Part shown: positions 54,109 to 64,000 of the stretch, one piece after another
How the letters are laid out: every line of letters starts with the position of its first letter
How positions within the stretch are numbered: the stretch's first letter is position 1
Assembly (NCBI GenBank): GCA_002794775.1
Contig: NBAY01000001.1
Span: 2,294,001 to 2,358,000 of the forward strand
Length of the DNA stretch: 64,000 nt
Origin: Porodaedalea pini
Taxonomy: Eukaryota; Basidiomycota; Agaricomycetes; Hymenochaetales; Hymenochaetaceae
Reading direction: 5' to 3'
Program-made: the position numbers and the translations under genes
Notes under the pieces: model-generated
The model's input: the letters and a program-made list of their open reading frames with translations, nothing else
Database searches by the model: none
Told to the model about the DNA's origin: nothing

Positions 54109-57100
54109 GTGAACGAAAAGGACAAGTATGAGCAACTGTTCATGAGGGGAACTGGTGGATGCCAGCTGGACCTCCTCCTGAACGTTGGACACAGTGTAGT
54201 GGGTGAAGTGAGAGAGGTAGATGCGCATGCTCTCGTCGACTCAGGGTGTACAGGATTGTGCATCGACGTGAGGTCCATTGAAAGATATGGGTTGGAGACC
54301 AAGCACTACATCAGACCCCTTGCGGTGATCAATGCGGATGGCATGCACAATGAGGCTGGTTTGATTGAGAGATACGTCAACGTCGAGCTGATGATTGGAA
54401 GTCACAAGGAAAGGATCATCCTTGCGGTGACATCCCTAGCATCATCAAACATTTTCCTTGGCTACGACTGGCTTCGACGCCACAACCCAGAGGTCAACTG
54501 GAAGGCAGGTTTGATTGAATTCACCCGCTGTCCAGAGGAGTGCACAGTAGAGAAGGAGACTGTGGAGGAAATGAGGAGGGTGAGAGAAGTGCGAATGGAC
54601 AAGGCATCCTGGCCCACATATCTCAACGACTATGCCAATGTCTTCTCAGAGAAGGGATTTGAGAAGCTACCAGAACACCGCCCCTGGGACCACGTCATTG
54701 ACCTGAAACCCGACTTCAAGCCTAGCGACTGCAAGATCTATCCGCTGATGCCGACGGAACAGCAGTCGCTAAAGGACTTCCTTGAAGAGAACCTGAAGTC
54801 AGGCCGTATACAAAAGTCAATCTCACCAATGGCGTCGCCCTTCTTTTTCATCAAGAAGGCTGACAAGTCCCTACGCCCAATACAGGACTACCAGAAGCTT
54901 AATGAGGGAACAATCAAGAACAAGTACCCTCTCCCCCTCATTGACGAACTTGTCGACAAGGTCAAGAAGGCGAAGTTCATCACCAAACTTGACCTCCGAT
55001 GGGGATACTACAACATCCGGATCCGTGAAGGCAATGAGTGGAAAGCAGCTTTTTGCACGAATATGGGTCTCTTCGAGCCAACGGTCATGTTCTTTGGTCT
55101 TTGCAACGCACCGGCGACGTTCCAAGCATTCGTCAACCACATCTTCAAGGGACTGATCTATGATAACTTGATCATCATCTACCTCAACGACATCCTCATC
55201 CTCTCACAAACTCTTGAGAAACATATTGAGACGTCGAGGCGTGTCCTTCAGATCTTGCGAGAGAACGGCTTGTACCTGAAGCCGGAGAAGTGCGAGTTCG
55301 ACGCCAAGACCGTGAGGTACCTTGGACACATCATCGGCAATGGCGAGATCAGGGCTGACCTGGCAAAGACAGAGGCGATCGCAGACTGGCCAGTCCCACA
55401 AAACCTCAAACAGCTGCAACAATTCCTCGGCATGGGCAACTGGCTGCGATGGTTCATCAAGGACTACAGCAAGGTAGTCCATCCACTGATGTCACTGATG
55501 GGCAAGAAGGACTGGGTATGGGAGACCGAACAGCAGGAGGTGTTCAAGGAGTTGAGACGACGTCTCTGCTCACCTCCAGTCCTGACCATTGCCAATGACA
55601 AGGACCCTTTCCACGTCGAAGCGGACTCGTTGAACTTTGCACTTGGTGGCGTGTTGTTGCAGAAGCAGGAAGGCAAGTGGAGGGTAGTGGCCTACAGGTC
55701 AGAGGCGCTCCTGCCAGCGGAACGAAACTACGAGATCTACGACAAGGAGATGCTCGCGATCGTTTCGGCACTCAAGGAGTGGAGGCAGTACCTTCTCGGC
55801 GCCTGTCACAAGATCAAGATCTGGTCTGACCACGCCAACCTAACCTACTTCAGATTGGCACAAAAACTGAGCTATTGTCAAGCTCGCTGGCAGACAGAGC
55901 TCAAGGAATTTGACTTCCACCTCGAGCACAAGTCGGGGAAGACGATGGGCAAGGCAGACCTACTGTCATGCAAGGCAGGCTATGACAAGGGCAAGGATGA
56001 TAACGACGGAGTCATTTTCATCAAGGAGAAGTGGCTGAACTGCAGGATGGTGAGGACATTGCATAATGAGGTGGTGGAACGAGTGGGTGAAGTGCAGAGG
56101 GTGCAGGATGAGTCGGAGAGGCTGACGGGTATGACGGAAGTCAACGGATTATGGCGGATGAAGGGCAAGGTGTACGTGCCATCAACGATGAAGGAGGCCG
56201 TATTGCGGGAGTGTCACGACTCAGTACTGGCTGGACATCCGGGAGTGTCGAAGACAGTGGAACTCATCTGTCGCGATTTCTGGTGGGCGTCTATGTTCTC
56301 TGATGTCTGAGCATACGTCTAAGGATGCGACCGTTGTCAACAGACAAAAGCCTTGAGGACGTCGAGGTCGAGGCCGCTTCATCCAAATGCAGTCCCTGAA
56401 GGCCCCTGGGAAATCGTCACGGTCGACCTCATCGGAGAGCTCCCAGACTCCAAGGGACACAATGCGATCTGCGTCTTTGTGGATAGGTTCTCGAAGCAGA
56501 TGCACGCAATCCCAATGATGACGAAGTTGTCAGCAGAAGGCATGGCTCAGCTGTACCATGACCATGTCTTCTGCCTCCATGGCTTACCAAAGAAGATCAT
56601 CCATGACCAAGGCACACAGTTCGATGCGTCGATGATGAAGGAGCTGTACAAACTCCTACACATCAAAGGCAACCTGTCGACAGCGTATCACCCACAGACA
56701 GATGGTCAAATGGAACACGTTAACCAGGAGCTTGAACAGTACCTTTGACTCTTCATTGACCATCGGCAATCAGACTGGAAGGACTGGCTCCCCCTCGTGG
56801 AGTTTGTGTACAACAACCGTGAACACTCAGCGACAAAGATGTCCCCCTTCTACGCAAATACAGGACATCACCCTCTAAGCTTCGACACAATGTGAACCTC
56901 CTCTGCCAACATGTCAGCAGAAGAATTTGCGAAGCACATCAAGGAGACTCACAGCGTCATGAAGGACAACCTGGTCAAGGCAGCCGAGGACATAAAACGC
57001 TACCATGACCGGATGACAGGAATGTCGGTGGAGTACAAGGCAGGAGACAAGGTCTTCCTCGATGGGTGAAACATCAGCATGGATTCGCCGACGAAGAAGC

Positions 57101-59030: not shown

Positions 59031-59329
59031 TGTTAGGACTTGAACTTTCACCTTTTCTTTTATTTTTCTTTTACCATTTCTTTTCTTTTAATCATCCCTT
59101 TTCATTATGTTTAATCATCTTTCCAATCATTTCCCACACTCCTTTCACATGACCTTCATTTGTTCCATTCCGCTCCCTGATATGTAATCTTAGATAATTG
59201 GGCAACCGGTTCTCATGAGGTGATCGCTGTATATAAGGAAGATGAATTGCATCTGAACACCTGTTCTGCTTTTCCTCTTACCTCCACGACGACCTAGGTG
59301 AGACCGCATCCCCCTCCTGTAGTAGAGTA
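59031..59329 (+). repeat. 3' LTR of Gypsy copy 2, truncated by insertion
   Basis: Starts TGTTAGGACTT after the G-run and matches the 5' LTR for 299 bp. It then switches after GTAGTAGAGTA to AGGTAGGGGAAAG, the end of the next transposon. The missing part corresponds to 52055-52196 of the 5' LTR. Confidence 0.9.
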
Positions 59330-59496
59330 AGGTAGGGGAAAGATAAACTCAACAAGCTAAGTCACATCACAGTCACGGACCCTGATTACCCCATTAGGAA
59401 GGACCCTGAGGCCAAAATTGCAAGTACAGATTATTTTATTTTTTTTGGCAAAGCAAAGGCAAGTTATAAAATTGTCTAGAGTATAAGTAAATTAGA

Positions 59497-61013
59497 TGCC
59501 TGCTCTATCCAGTTCTTCCATAATTGTGGTATTCAATGTCCTGTGACCATGATATCTTCTGTTAACCCATTGTGCTTGGATCCCATTCAAACCACGGCGA
59601 TATGCATCCATGAATTGAGCTGACCGGTCTGCAAACCTAAGTCATATAAAAAATCAGCATTATAGGATGCAAAAACACAAAATAAAACAGAGAGAGACAG
59701 AAGGAGCTCACTTTTTAAAAAGCTCTAAAGGGATAGAGTCAAGACAGAGCTTGATATTCTGCTCCATTTCCTGTTCATTAGATGTCCGAGGTAGCATGCA
59801 GTAATAATACTTTGCCTTTCCCCAACATTGCTCAATAAAATTGAGCTCACAGTGGAATTTGGGATAGAAAATTGCTTTATGCCCACACCGTCCAATGTAC
59901 TCTTCAAGTGCAGACTTCTGGTTACAAAAATCAGGCTGGTTGAAAAGAATGCGCCTGCAGCAACAAGATGCACTCTCACTGGTATTTTCGCATTTAAAGT
60001 TCTTGCATTGTGAAAGCTTTCCCTGAACATTAATACCGCACTCAGTCAGAATCTGCTCCATGCCTTTGAACTCTCCAGGGTGGTGAGATGGTCCAGGGGA
60101 AAATAGAGAGGTTGAGGCATGCCATTCGGAAGCTGACCAGGTCGCATACCATCCTTAGGTGCTCGCTCGCCCTTCCAACCTGAACCTTTTGGCATGTAGT
60201 GAGCTGAGAGTGCATCCTCTGCATGCTTTTGATGAGTAGTTGCATTATCAAAAGCAAATAGTGCAACGCAGCCTGGAAAACGATCCTCAAAAATATCAAT
60301 TGTGGTTTCAATTTGTGCCATGATATTTTCATGCCCAAAATATCCCTCCCTATTCTTTCTGGCTTTGAAGATAATGCGAGCCTCATGAGATCTGTATAAT
60401 AAAAATAATTCAGGAAATAATGTTTGGAAAACATTTGAGAAACTCACCCATCAGACGACTTGAGCCACCCAGCTTCAGGAGTACAGAAATCTGACACCAT
60501 AATTGAAGTGCCTTCACCCTTTGTTCGCGGCTTTGTGGTGGCATCTTTATGTGTCCATTGTAGATCTTGCTGGTCGTTCATATAGAATGTGGATTCATCA
60601 TGAGTCATGAGAATAAGTCGCTCTTGTGATGGGTTGCGGACGTGATCGAAAGACATGCTCCTTTCAAGCTCTGCCCAAAGAGGCAGAAATACACACTGGC
60701 GGTAAAAAATGACATCCTCTCGTTCATGCCCATCAACATACATCCCTTTAGGAGCCTTGGTGTATCGGTAATCCATGGCATTCAGCCATTTTCGTGCAGT
60801 ATGAATTGTAACAGGCTTTGAACAACCAAGGCAAGAGAGTATACTGGGAAGGTTCAAATAGGCTTGGACATCAAATGGCAATAGGTAGTCTTTTTTAAGG
60901 CTTTGAAGGTGCAAGTGAATCTCCATCACAAAATCTTCATCATTGATAATTGACTTCTTCCAGATGCCATAAAGATTTATGGGCAAAAAACGGTGATCTT
61001 GGAGGTGCTTTCA
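59497..61013 (-). pseudogene. DDE transposase (IS630/mariner-like), one in-frame stop
   Basis: Typical of the agaricomycete transposase family often annotated as DDE endonuclease. Reading 5' to 3' on the minus strand: EDFVMEIHLHLQSL, TIHTARKWLNAMDYRY (helix-turn-helix-like), LILMTHDESTFYMNDQ with the first catalytic Asp, GTSIMVSDFCTPE, then, after an intron near 60440-60395, CVALFAFDNATTHQKHAEDAL with the second Asp, a CCCRR cluster and HCELNFIEQCWGKAKYY with the third acidic residue, and WVNRRYHGHRTLNTTI near the end. A TGA at 61011-61013 separates it from its N-terminal part (VAGRGTHLACNIRSWV-stop-KHLQDHRFLP), which lies in the same frame. Arginine (CGA) is the likely original. The right half is otherwise open. 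Confidence 0.8.
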
Positions 61014-63113
61014 AACCCAGCTACGAATGTTGCACGCCAAATGCGTACCTCGACCAGCTACAGTTGCAGCAGCAAACATTGACGCCTCAACCCAGGTAAA
61101 GTCTTTGTTCATGATATAGGCATGAAGAAAGACTAACATCGCTGTTACACGACCACGAAACAATAGATCAAGTGTTCGGTCCCTTGAGATGCAGTCGAGA
61201 TGCCATATTGCTTCAAGGAGTTCAGGGTTGTTCCAGTCAGGAGCATGAAATTTATTATGCACAACTTGCTCCTCTGACATGACTTGCAGGTCATGTGCGC
61301 CAGGTGGAATAGCGCCCTCACTGCCTTCATTCGGCACGTCACGATGTCCTTCAGGACTTCTCACTTCTATACCCATGAGCCGACCACTCTTGTCGGCGTG
61401 TCGTTCCTCTCCCTCCTCCTCCTCCTCCTCCTCCTCCCATGGCAAGAAGCACAGATGTGCATGGTTATCTCCATCCGGTAGCCTTTCGAACAGATAGTTC
61501 ACAGTCATCTCCTCATTCTTGTCGCATGCGAAGTATGCCTTGAGTGCTGCCTGCCACAGGAAACCAAGGGCCTCAAGTCGATCGGCCATGGTGTGTTCAT
61601 CTGCCACGACAGGCAAGCATCCCAAAAGTGCAGGTGAAGTTATACTGGCACTCTCGCCATTACCTTCGCCTTTGTTCGTGAACTCTGCCTGCGAAACACT
61701 CATTGTTGATGCGGGATCACCGATGCGCAGCTCCGCCTCGTCGAGCGTAGCAGCTGCAAGTGCAGCACTCTCCTCTTTGAAGTACACAATGAGGGCCTTG
61801 CCAGAGAAGGTGCTGTCATCGCGCACGTAGAGCTTCACCTTTGGGTCACCACCATTGTCCTCTTCGAGCACACCGCAGCGCCCAAAATGGGCAGCAAGCT
61901 CCTCTGCAGTCGTGTCAGGCAGCAGCCGCGTCACGTACATGGCAGTGTTCTTGGCATCGACAATACGCGCAGGCACATCAGGTCTGAATTGCGGCGCTGA
62001 CGACCTTAATGCACTGGCATGTGGAAAGAGGCCATTCCGGGTATGTTTGGGAATGGGTGTACCTCGCTGGATTGATTGAAAGGTGAGTGGGACAGGTTCG
62101 GAGAAGGTGAGGCTGGGAGGTGGGACCGCCAGTGGGCTTTCGTAGCTGTATGTGAGTGAATTGTCCATCCGGAAATTGTACTGCAGCTCTGATAATCTTA
62201 CAGAACCTGCCTGTGGAAGAAAAGCATTCTGGATATGTTCAGGAATGCGGACAGGCCCGGAAGATGACATTTGAAGAGGCCACGGTGTACTTTTGAGGCC
62301 ACAGGTGAGTGCATTGACTGACCGTGAACCATACCGAGGCTCCGACAACCTCACAGCACTGACCTGTGGAAGAAAAGCATTCTGGATATGTTCAGGAATG
62401 GGTGCAGGCCCGGAGGACGATGTTTGGGGAGGCCGCGGTGTACTTTTGAGGCTGCAGGTGAGTGCATCAGCCAGTCTCGAGCTATAGGGCAGCTCTGATG
62501 CCGTTAGAGCATCGGCCCGTGGAAGCAAAGCATTCTGGATATGTTCGGGAATGGGTGTACCTCGCTGGATTGATCGAAAGGTGTGAATTTGAGTGCGTAG
62601 AGCAGAGACTTGGTCTTCTGTGAACAAAACTGGAGACTGAGGCGGGGAAGGCTCATCGATGGACGACAGATGAGGGGTTCTAGCTGTCGACACACCATGG
62701 CGTCCGGTCATCATATCATCCTGCTTGCGTCTGACCGAATCAAGAGCCTCGCTCAAATGACGGGTGTCTTGTTGTTCGTCAAGCGAGTCCTCACCGCGAC
62801 CCAGCTCAACGTCAATGTGAAGAAGTGTGTCAACGTCAAACCGCAGGTGGACCGACACCCTATCCGCATCCTCCTGCTCATGTCTGGCCGTCTCGTGAAC
62901 CTTGGCTGCAGTGCAATTAGCCCCTCGCTTGACATATTCTGCCTGGTCTACATGCAGATCGCACTCTGGACGACGCTGCAGAACTTCCCGCTCGGCGTGC
63001 ACATCCTGCTCAAGGAGCTGGAGGAAGTTGTGTGTATGACCCCGGTGTTTTTGATGGTTGATGCTACCAGGCTCAAGTACCTCGATATCCCCATCATCGT
63101 CTGCTATTGCCAT
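61011..63113 (-). CDS. Chimeric 700-codon ORF: Snf2 + Cus2 RRM + Rad23 UBA + transposase N-terminus
   Basis: One uninterrupted minus-strand frame in which parts of unrelated proteins follow each other. Residues about 160-210 (VLFTEDQVSALRTQIHTF, GTPIPEHIQNALLP) match the N-terminal region of fungal Snf2-type remodellers and are then repeated in about 51-residue units to about residue 380. PARIVDA, also Snf2-like, joins at once to KNTAMYVTRLLPDTTAEEL, GVLEEDNGGDPKVKLYV and FSGKALIVYFKEESAA, the RRM of Cus2/Tat-SF1. Next comes a UBA domain like Rad23 UBA2 (MADRLEALGFLW, AYFACDKNEEM, NYLFE), a poly-Glu run, and the N-terminal part of the transposase (WHLDCISRDRTLDLLF, RGTHLACNIRSWV). The first 150 residues read antisense to an AHCY fragment. 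Whether it is translated is unknown. Confidence 0.7.
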   Translation of the reverse strand: MAIADDDGDIEVLEPGSINHQKHRGHTHNFLQLLEQDVHAEREVLQRRPECDLHVDQAEYVKRGANCTAAKVHETARHEQEDADRVSVHLRFDVDTLLHIDVELGRGEDSLDEQQDTRHLSEALDSVRRKQDDMMTGRHGVSTARTPHLSSIDEPSPPQSPVLFTEDQVSALRTQIHTFRSIQRGTPIPEHIQNALLPRADALTASELPYSSRLADALTCSLKSTPRPPQTSSSGPAPIPEHIQNAFLPQVSAVRLSEPRYGSRSVNALTCGLKSTPWPLQMSSSGPVRIPEHIQNAFLPQAGSVRLSELQYNFRMDNSLTYSYESPLAVPPPSLTFSEPVPLTFQSIQRGTPIPKHTRNGLFPHASALRSSAPQFRPDVPARIVDAKNTAMYVTRLLPDTTAEELAAHFGRCGVLEEDNGGDPKVKLYVRDDSTFSGKALIVYFKEESAALAAATLDEAELRIGDPASTMSVSQAEFTNKGEGNGESASITSPALLGCLPVVADEHTMADRLEALGFLWQAALKAYFACDKNEEMTVNYLFERLPDGDNHAHLCFLPWEEEEEEEEGEERHADKSGRLMGIEVRSPEGHRDVPNEGSEGAIPPGAHDLQVMSEEQVVHNKFHAPDWNNPELLEAIWHLDCISRDRTLDLLFRGRVTAMLVFLHAYIMNKDFTWVEASMFAAATVAGRGTHLACNIRSWV
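62018..62590 (-). repeat. Tandem repeats of the Snf2-derived piece (153-bp period)
   Basis: The segment containing AGCATTCTGGATATGTTC begins equivalent units at 62210, 62363 and 62516, exactly 153 bp (51 codons) apart, with a more diverged unit near 62018. The period is a multiple of three, so the frame is kept. Confidence 0.85.
62688..63030 (+). pseudogene. S-adenosylhomocysteine hydrolase fragment, antisense to the chimeric ORF
   Basis: On the plus strand, VNVKPQVDRH, SGRLVNLGC, and MQIALWTTLQNFPLGVHIL-KELEEVV match the C-terminal NAD-binding part of AHCY, the enzyme that splits S-adenosylhomocysteine. A second short copy of the neighbouring motif (MASGHHIILLAS) lies at about 62697-62735 in altered order. 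The enzyme is about 430-450 residues; only about 80-100 are represented, with changes at invariant positions (GCAT is GCSA here), so this is a dead piece. Confidence 0.65.
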
Positions 63114-63203
63114 CTGGTCTATCAGCTTAAAGAAGCCACGGATGTCTGGAAAGCCTTGCTTGCGAAGGCTTTCTTTTTTCTTTTTGGCTTTTGTTTTCTG
63201 GTT

Positions 63204-63545
63204 TCAAAGAGTATGTGCAGGCTTTTGTGATGGCAAACTGACTTTGTTATACCTGCTAGGCTGTGCTTTCTCTTTTATTTGAGACAACCAGTTTGCTAGT
63301 CCAACAGAAAGCTCTTGAAAAAACTTGTTACTGACTTCTGCGTCAACAAGCCCCACATCTGCTTGATCAAGGTCTGCATTTTCATCACTATCATTTGACC
63401 TGATGCTGACAATTGAGGAGCTGCTATCCCAAACTTCATGGTGCTCTGGAGGCTCATCTTCGATGTTTGACTCGGCAGCAGGATTCTGCTCTGCAGGCTG
63501 TTGCAGAGAATAGAGGTAAGGAGAAATCTTAAGAGATATTTTCAT
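63204..63545 (-). CDS. Upstream exon of the mariner-type element, acidic
   Basis: A 113-codon open frame rich in Asp, Glu and Ser (EDEPPEHHEVWDSSSSIVSI, DADENADLDQADVG-like) on the same strand as, and just upstream of, the chimeric frame. A second basic strip (KKKKESLRKQGFPDIRGFFK, about 63175-63120) runs directly into the start of the chimeric ORF, so these are probably exons of one transposase-type gene. No domain is recognised. Confidence 0.4.
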   Translation of the reverse strand: MKISLKISPYLYSLQQPAEQNPAAESNIEDEPPEHHEVWDSSSSIVSIRSNDSDENADLDQADVGLVDAEVSNKFFQELSVGLANWLSQIKEKAQPSRYNKVSLPSQKPAHTL

Positions 63546-64000
63546 GTACTCACTGAGTCCTTTTTACTGCTTAGATTCTTTAGCCAACTGGTCTTTTTCC
63601 TTGAGGGAGGTGGCATCAATTATTTTGCAGGTGGTAACTGAGTCGAACAGAGGAAATGCGGCAGATATGCGCATTAGTAATATTTTGTAAACTACTATAT
63701 ATAGAAATTATTTGTCATTTAGGTATAGCCGAGACTGGCCAAAATCTCCTGTTGAATTTTTCAAAAATCCGTCAGGTTGTTGCACAATGAAATCTGAGGC
63801 CTTTGGCAAAAAAGAGTTTTTTCCTTAAACAGAAAGTCCAAAACTTCATGTTTTTGAAATTTAAAAACACAGATCTCTAGCTAAATACAATCCCAAGAGT
63901 TCTGTGGGGCTTAATTGCAAGTTTGTGTCCAGTTGAAGAAGCAGTTCCCTCGACATTGTGTGTCACCAGATTAGGCAAGTAAGGTTAGTGCCACCCGCGT
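63546..64000. other. Right edge, AT-rich, element interior
   Basis: No exon, inverted repeat or RNA gene is recognised. It is presumed to be the 5' side of the mariner-type element, continuing beyond the window. Confidence 0.35.

Follow-up and report, generated by a model that had tools for sequence, protein, structure and literature searches.

How does a single open reading frame come to hold pieces of several unrelated host genes next to a transposase, and what keeps such a frame open? The question is raised by a 64,000-nucleotide (nt) stretch of the basidiomycete Porodaedalea pini (hereafter the window; contig C1, 2294001-2358000, of a genome of 53.27 Mb in 201 contigs), in which a minus-strand frame at 61011-63113 runs for 700 codons from an ATG without a stop and for 730 codons from stop to stop. 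An earlier note on this DNA, made from the sequence alone, had described the frame as a fusion of Snf2, Cus2/Tat-SF1, Rad23 and transposase segments and had proposed the capture of at least three host genes in the sense orientation, in frame with a DDE transposase. The frame lies in a decayed copy of a Tc1-like DNA transposon, and related copies in the same genome carry host gene pieces in one frame with an apparently complete transposase. In our judgement the host pieces were probably copied into the transposase linker that joins the native N-terminus to the catalytic core and were kept in frame there, the linker being for the most part tolerated and filtered for its reading frame.

The length of the frame and the identity of its three host blocks were borne out by Pfam, a PDB sequence search and alignments to donor genes. 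Pfam recognises QLQ (7.2e-12) and UBA (3.4e-6) domains, both above the gathering score, whereas RRM_1 (0.0058) falls short of it, and the PDB search with the same frame returned Tat-SF1 (7.5e-7) and RAD23B (9.4e-6). Pieces of four host genes are present, with SNF2, CUS2/Tat-SF1 and RAD23 in sense and AHCY (adenosylhomocysteinase) in antisense. Read 5' to 3' along the minus strand, on which all these features lie, the native N-terminus ending in DIRGFF is followed by a piece antisense to the AHCY gene (62804..63025; 73% over 249 aligned columns to locus L041, a donor named by Pfam), a second antisense AHCY piece (62693..62737; 93% over 45 nt), an SNF2 piece in sense with the QLQ domain (62500..62652; 85% over 158 aligned columns), SNF2-derived repeats at a tandem spacing of 153 nt (62356..62404, 90% over 49 nt; 62211..62247, 95% over 37 nt) and a last SNF2 piece that ends in VPARIVDA (61952..62083; 75% over 135 aligned columns), the motif PARIVDA being SNF2 sequence in the donor frame. 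The CUS2/Tat-SF1 RRM piece comes next (61654..61952; 91.3% over 299 nt to L037), followed by the last exon of RAD23 with its C-terminal UBA (61484..61577; 84% over 94 nt to L050), a poly-Glu run evident from the sequence (61404..61436), a piece of an upstream RAD23 exon (61265..61328; 84% over 64 nt) and the transposase core, so that the two RAD23 exons stand in an order swapped relative to the host gene. The antisense AHCY piece and the second RAD23 piece were absent from the earlier note, as were the family of related elements, the capture of another gene in a second subfamily and the likely cassette exchange discussed below.

Donor loci for each block were found in the same genome, and the outcome that the earlier note had named as contrary to its claim, a lack of similarity to SNF2, CUS2 and RAD23, did not occur. 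The donors are CUS2 (L037), SNF2 (L038), AHCY (L041), RAD23 (L050) and, for another subfamily, an Atf1-type gene (L049), with nucleotide identities of 73-95% per piece. A Pfam scan of the donors other than RAD23 confirmed AdoHcyase (1.1e-33), QLQ (7.3e-12), RRM_1 (5.6e-6) and also Aft1_HRA, and NCBIfam names the AHCY piece. Runs identical to the donors extend over 18-41 nt; comparison of shuffled donors with four elements gave 0 such runs. The closest named homologues of CUS2 are those of Fomitiporia mediterranea (77%) and Coniferiporia weirii (70%). Capture by way of spliced RNA is a possibility: the RAD23 UBA match starts at or beside an exon border, but the sequence before it resembles neither the intron nor the exon upstream. 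The last exon of RAD23 has two equally good matches (G000:C7:22212-22325 and C11:889252-889365), which would mean either that the gene is duplicated or that the assembly holds two haplotypes. A 32-nt SNF2 stretch, searched with up to 3 mismatches, occurs at 25 places in the genome, one in SNF2 itself (positions 4758-4789 of L038) and 24 in ten elements at 2-3 per element (62215-62246, 62368-62399 and 62521-62552 in the window), with 0 places for the reversed control; it is conserved at synonymous sites too, for which tandem duplication, conversion and a nucleotide-level role are candidate causes.

The carrier element extends from 59328 to 64034 in window coordinates (about 4.7 kb, with the ends taken from alignment with other copies), and the window, covering 59328..64000 of it on the minus strand, thus misses its first 34 nt. 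The terminal inverted repeat (TIR), compared at its 3' end (59328..59354), is about 27 nt long with one mismatch and is accompanied by a TA duplication; the corresponding empty site, in L036, has one TA. The duplication was checked against an empty site for the window copy, and for the other copies the ends were aligned. A Helitron was rejected as the carrier, as the frames scanned hold no Rep/helicase and a TIR and a TA duplication are present. A domesticated host-transposase fusion gene was likewise rejected in view of 18 close copies, the TIRs and the different flanks.

Within this copy the native N-terminus (63126..63428, located by tblastn with the N-terminus of L022) carries a premature stop at 63204-63206 that cuts the 700-codon frame off from it. 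The first part of the transposase core (60447..61253; 72% identical to that of L023 and containing one TGA) is interrupted by the stop at 61011-61013, and the C-terminal part (59510..60390, located by tblastn with the homologue P0011) has a frameshift near 60082. The transposase segment reported at the end of the frame is real, although limited to the first ~80 residues of the core, its stop preceding any DDE residue. Because of the two stops and the frameshift the window copy cannot be read as one fused transposase: it is a dead copy of the element, and the frame at 61011-63113 is the piece between two stops, not a whole gene.

Intact copies show the DDE motifs HDEST, FDNA and ELNF(I/V)EQCW. 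Pfam DDE_3 scores 16.3 in the window piece, below its gathering score of 28.6, and is found in 36 of 68 homologues scanned. The second D and the E are about 140 residues apart in P0011; in classic Tc1/mariner members they are about 34-41 residues apart, and the element is for this reason termed Tc1-like rather than a classic member. Just upstream of the capture site, in the native N-terminus of the window and sister copies, stands the motif QGFxDIRxFF, with related forms in some homologues, which we take to resemble a PCNA-binding (PIP) box.

The evidence for a fusion that reaches the catalytic residues comes from the sister copies. A search of the genome with the core gave at least 26 matches, of which seven are distant and 19, from at least 18 places, reach 60% identity. 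Seventeen of the 18 copies were read (L021-L029, L031-L036, L039 and L040, L030 being the other part of the L029 copy and the C3 copy being left out), and the same layout recurs in several copies that lie on separate contigs and differ in their flanks. Six of the 17 (L022, L023, L024, L025, L032 and L035) are open along the long exon and, past two short GT-AG introns, as far as the C-terminus, with the native N-terminus, the captured linker and the DDE core in one frame and with all three DDE motifs; a putative short first exon is visible in some copies, its splicing being predicted only. The capture of at least three host genes in sense and in frame with a DDE transposase thus stands for the family, since sister copies run without a stop into the catalytic core. 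The earlier note had proposed to look for the same fusion in other copies, and host pieces do continue in frame through the core in these six; among the copies found, the CUS2 RRM piece is confined to that of the window, its other match in the genome being the donor locus only. Pfam identifies QLQ in L022 and L023, for which it gives no UBA match, QLQ and UBA in L024 and L025, and Aft1_HRA with XPC-binding in L032 and L035. The core is preceded by about 610-780 codons in the six open copies and by 377 residues or fewer in homologues with a located core, except for 485 in P0012, many of these models being truncated.

Across four lineages (window, L022, L024 and L032) the captured part is free of stops over 440-610 codons in the transposase frame, with 3-39 stops in each of the other 20 readings. 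In ten comparisons of close copies the in-frame indels of the captured part measure 228 nt (L023, an in-frame change of repeat number), 9 nt (L031) and 6 nt (L033), and the out-of-frame events are one of 1 nt (L033) and two large insertions, 1246 nt long in L027 and 1001 nt long in L036.

The captured gene differs in another subfamily. In L031-L036 and L040 the linker includes a piece of an Atf1-type gene (in L032, 93.6% over 500 nt), and the RAD23 piece NPALLQPMIQQIAQSNPN adjoins the core in L032, L036 and L040, the three members of the subfamily that were aligned to donors. The linker therefore took different host genes in different branches. Between L032 and L036 the synonymous changes number 32.5 of 292 in the captured part and 1 of 185 in the core, a contrast that may reflect another exchange event within the subfamily. 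A more distant copy (G000:C3:266571-268654) shows three consecutive matches to the Atf1 piece, as if repeated.

A single origin of the cassette formed by antisense AHCY and SNF2 is supported by a spacer between the two, unlike either donor, that is common to the window copy, L024, L022 and L028, and by a Ser shared by the same four where the donor and the SNF2 proteins of Fomitiporia and Sanghuangporus have Ala. In three pairs the cassette has a far smaller synonymous difference than the core has (0.374 vs 0.689, p 1e-8; 0.335 vs 0.704, p 3e-10; 0.418 vs 0.656, p 4e-5), and the native N-terminus is saturated like the core for these pairs (over 28 codons only in the window pairs); for this reason the cassette probably moved between element lineages. 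Agreement from the trees is less firm. The core tree joins the window copy to L022/L028 (99/98), the QLQ tree rooted on the donor joins L024 to L022/L028 (83/87), and the core data reject the QLQ grouping in the approximately unbiased (AU) test (p 0.014). The simplest reading of these patterns, though not beyond doubt, is that element lineages exchanged the cassette or the 5' part. At the SNF2|CUS2 junction the overlap is about 1 nt and L024 continues differently at that point, so that the window lineage seems to have gained CUS2 by a later insertion.

Selection was compared by rough pairwise dN/dS, the ratio of non-synonymous to synonymous change (omega). The core evolves under omega of 0.11-0.15 between subfamilies, at a synonymous divergence (dS) of 1.6-2.5. 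Values are higher for the SNF2 repeats (0.46-0.76) and reach 1.01 for the QLQ of L022-L024 (confidence interval 0.45-3.39). In close copies the captured part gives 0.38-0.93, with the interval below one only in two comparisons involving L036, in which the core itself has an excess of non-synonymous changes (5.8 and 2.9); very close copies differ by too few changes for such ratios. Between L022 and L028 omega is 0.68 (0.54-0.88) in the captured part, which holds 6 stops and three out-of-frame indels, 0.19 (0.13-0.27) in the core and 0.31 (0.17-0.52) in the N-terminus. Relative to the donors omega is 0.42 for the window RRM, 0.11 for the L024 QLQ, 0.09 for the L024 UBA and 0.32 for the L032 Atf1 piece, low values to which constraint acting in the donor, or predating the capture, contributes. 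The window RRM and its donor differ at 14 residues, and at all 14 the donor state recurs in one or both of two outgroup CUS2 proteins (in both at 12); the changes thus lie on the captured side. Of the purifying selection for which the earlier note had proposed a test across copies, signs appear for QLQ and UBA in some comparisons, while the RRM decays and the L022-L024 QLQ stays near one. We conclude from these comparisons that openness is what is kept, that constraint on QLQ and UBA is possible and that none is visible on the window RRM.

A tolerated linker would arise as follows. Host gene pieces would be captured by template switching during repair or replication, a route proposed for Pack-TIR elements in the portions of that study available (PMC8277862). 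Only in-frame, stop-free captures would leave a working transposase, so that selection would mainly keep the patchwork open, mostly as tolerated linker. The comparisons support a cassette that grew by tandem repeats and then, in the window lineage, by the CUS2 insertion, and that passed between diverged element lineages; its spread would be by transposition and by recombination between elements. Several points weigh against this explanation. Selection results are mixed, and some constraint argues against a purely passive linker, as for QLQ (omega 0.29 for window-L022, interval 0.12-0.62, and for window-L024, interval 0.11-0.75), for the window-L024 UBA (0.22, 0.07-0.69) and for the captured part in the two L036 comparisons (0.38 and 0.41). 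The exchange component is weakened by QLQ data with which the core grouping is compatible (p 0.067 in the AU test) and by L022-L028 dS values that are similar in the N-terminus (0.34) and the captured part (0.26) against 0.65 in the core. The capture mechanism left just the ~1-nt overlap at the one junction examined closely, and translation of the patchwork and the first exon/intron structure are predicted rather than observed.

A function for the captured domains is possible. The RAD23 UBA might stabilise the transposase and the QLQ or Aft1/XPC-binding pieces might recruit host partners, being retained for that reason; this we consider a minority prospect. The second UBA of RAD23 is described as a stabilisation signal in the part of that work available (PMC2535603), which makes transposase stabilisation the first hypothesis, and the QLQ and UBA of L024/L025 exceed the Pfam gathering scores; the low omega values of the window-L024 pair and of L024 to its donors point the same way. 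However, the latter may predate capture, the QLQ of L022-L024 evolves at about one, the captured part of L022-L028 is far less constrained than its core, L022 and L023 lack a UBA match and the window RRM decays. With similarly low confidence, the linker could be seen as a slot in which QLQ, RRM, UBA and Aft1/XPC-binding segments are captured in frame and swapped as cassettes between lineages, with the RAD23 UBA, at the least, raising transposase stability or altering targeting; were this so, transposases would evolve by modular domain acquisition inside a mobile element.

The patchwork might instead exist in DNA and not in protein, being spliced out or never translated. Short introns are usual in fungal genes and the element has others, but the stop-free 440-610 codons in four lineages are unexpected for an intron and the repeat number in L023 changed in frame, which makes this improbable. 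Independent capture of the same host pieces by each lineage, which would fit the closeness of the cassette to the donors and the smaller divergence of its synonymous sites compared with those of the flanks, is rendered a little less probable still by the common non-donor spacer and the shared derived residue. The pieces could also act as nucleic acid: antisense AHCY together with SNF2, RAD23 and ATF1 pieces in sense would give rise to small RNAs matching host messages, serving as a decoy or damping the methylation cycle. All 10 elements examined share perfectly matching stretches of 21 nt or more with host genes, the longest being 86 nt, and the AHCY pieces are antisense. Such a role is very unlikely, as it leaves the kept reading frame unexplained and few AHCY runs remain in the window copy and L028. 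Chance similarity or an assembly artefact was ruled out by the donor alignments, the shuffled control and independent copies of the same layout on different contigs, and is given almost no weight.

Elsewhere in the window, polyprotein-like frames at 54109-56748 on the plus strand have the look of a retrotransposon (reverse transcriptase and integrase, judged from translation only), and Rfam and tRNA scans gave no match.

Captured host sequence in a probably tolerated transposase linker can be set against several known systems. Among them are the Tc1-like DDE_3 transposases of Agaricomycetes (P0011-P0130), which share the core and the C-terminus (the best named relative being that of Sanghuangporus vaninii, at 66%) and have a shorter stretch before the core than the six open copies. 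Two of the 68 homologues scanned, from 120 listed, have an extra domain, namely P0041 (Tricholomella constricta) and P0063 (Gymnopilus dilepis), with kinase and RNF220 domains that are either other captures or gene-model fusions. The chimera was not found in other genomes among 9 matches to the whole window protein, from a search that scored only 7997 best-word candidates, and 10 to the L024 frame (residues 60-600), from one that scored only 7994; none of these matches has a transposase among its precomputed Pfam domains, and those that are named or bear domains resemble CUS2, RAD23, SNF2 or RAD23-domain/phospholipase proteins.

That DNA transposons can capture genes is well established (PMC8903248, PMC8277862, PMC3538342, PMC4289320, PMC10799480, PMC13317346). 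In the captures described in the available portions of these papers, host pieces lie in non-autonomous carriers or beside a transposase, and the open-licence literature searched gave no account of a mosaic like the one found here, with pieces of several host genes within the frame of a transposase that is apparently complete. Since donors, open copies and broken copies lie in one genome, capture, survival and cassette movement between lineages are open to study, and the possible effect of host domains in a transposase on its stability, targeting or silencing can be asked.

Pleurotus Helitrons are likewise basidiomycete transposons whose captured genes are amplified with the element; their captured genes lie downstream of the helicase, and these rolling-circle elements lack TIRs and a target duplication (PMC4289320). 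Fungal host-transposase fusion genes also join a transposase and host domains in one protein, but are host genes, in contrast to the repeated copies with mobile ends found here (PMC10799480). The hAT element of Pyrenophora tritici-repentis with its histone H3-like gene is, like the present element, a fungal DNA transposon with its own transposase and a captured host-like gene, and its short form encodes an in-frame chimeric protein; its host gene is a separate open frame, whereas here pieces of four host genes share one frame with the transposase (PMC3538342). Pack-TYPE and Pack-TIR elements, for which template switching was proposed, resemble the present elements in carrying host gene fragments between TIRs (PMC8903248, PMC8277862). 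Pack-TYPE elements, however, are described as non-autonomous and lack a transposase of their own, whereas six of the 17 copies read here have an open DDE transposase, and the host pieces form part of its reading frame in elements that are apparently complete.

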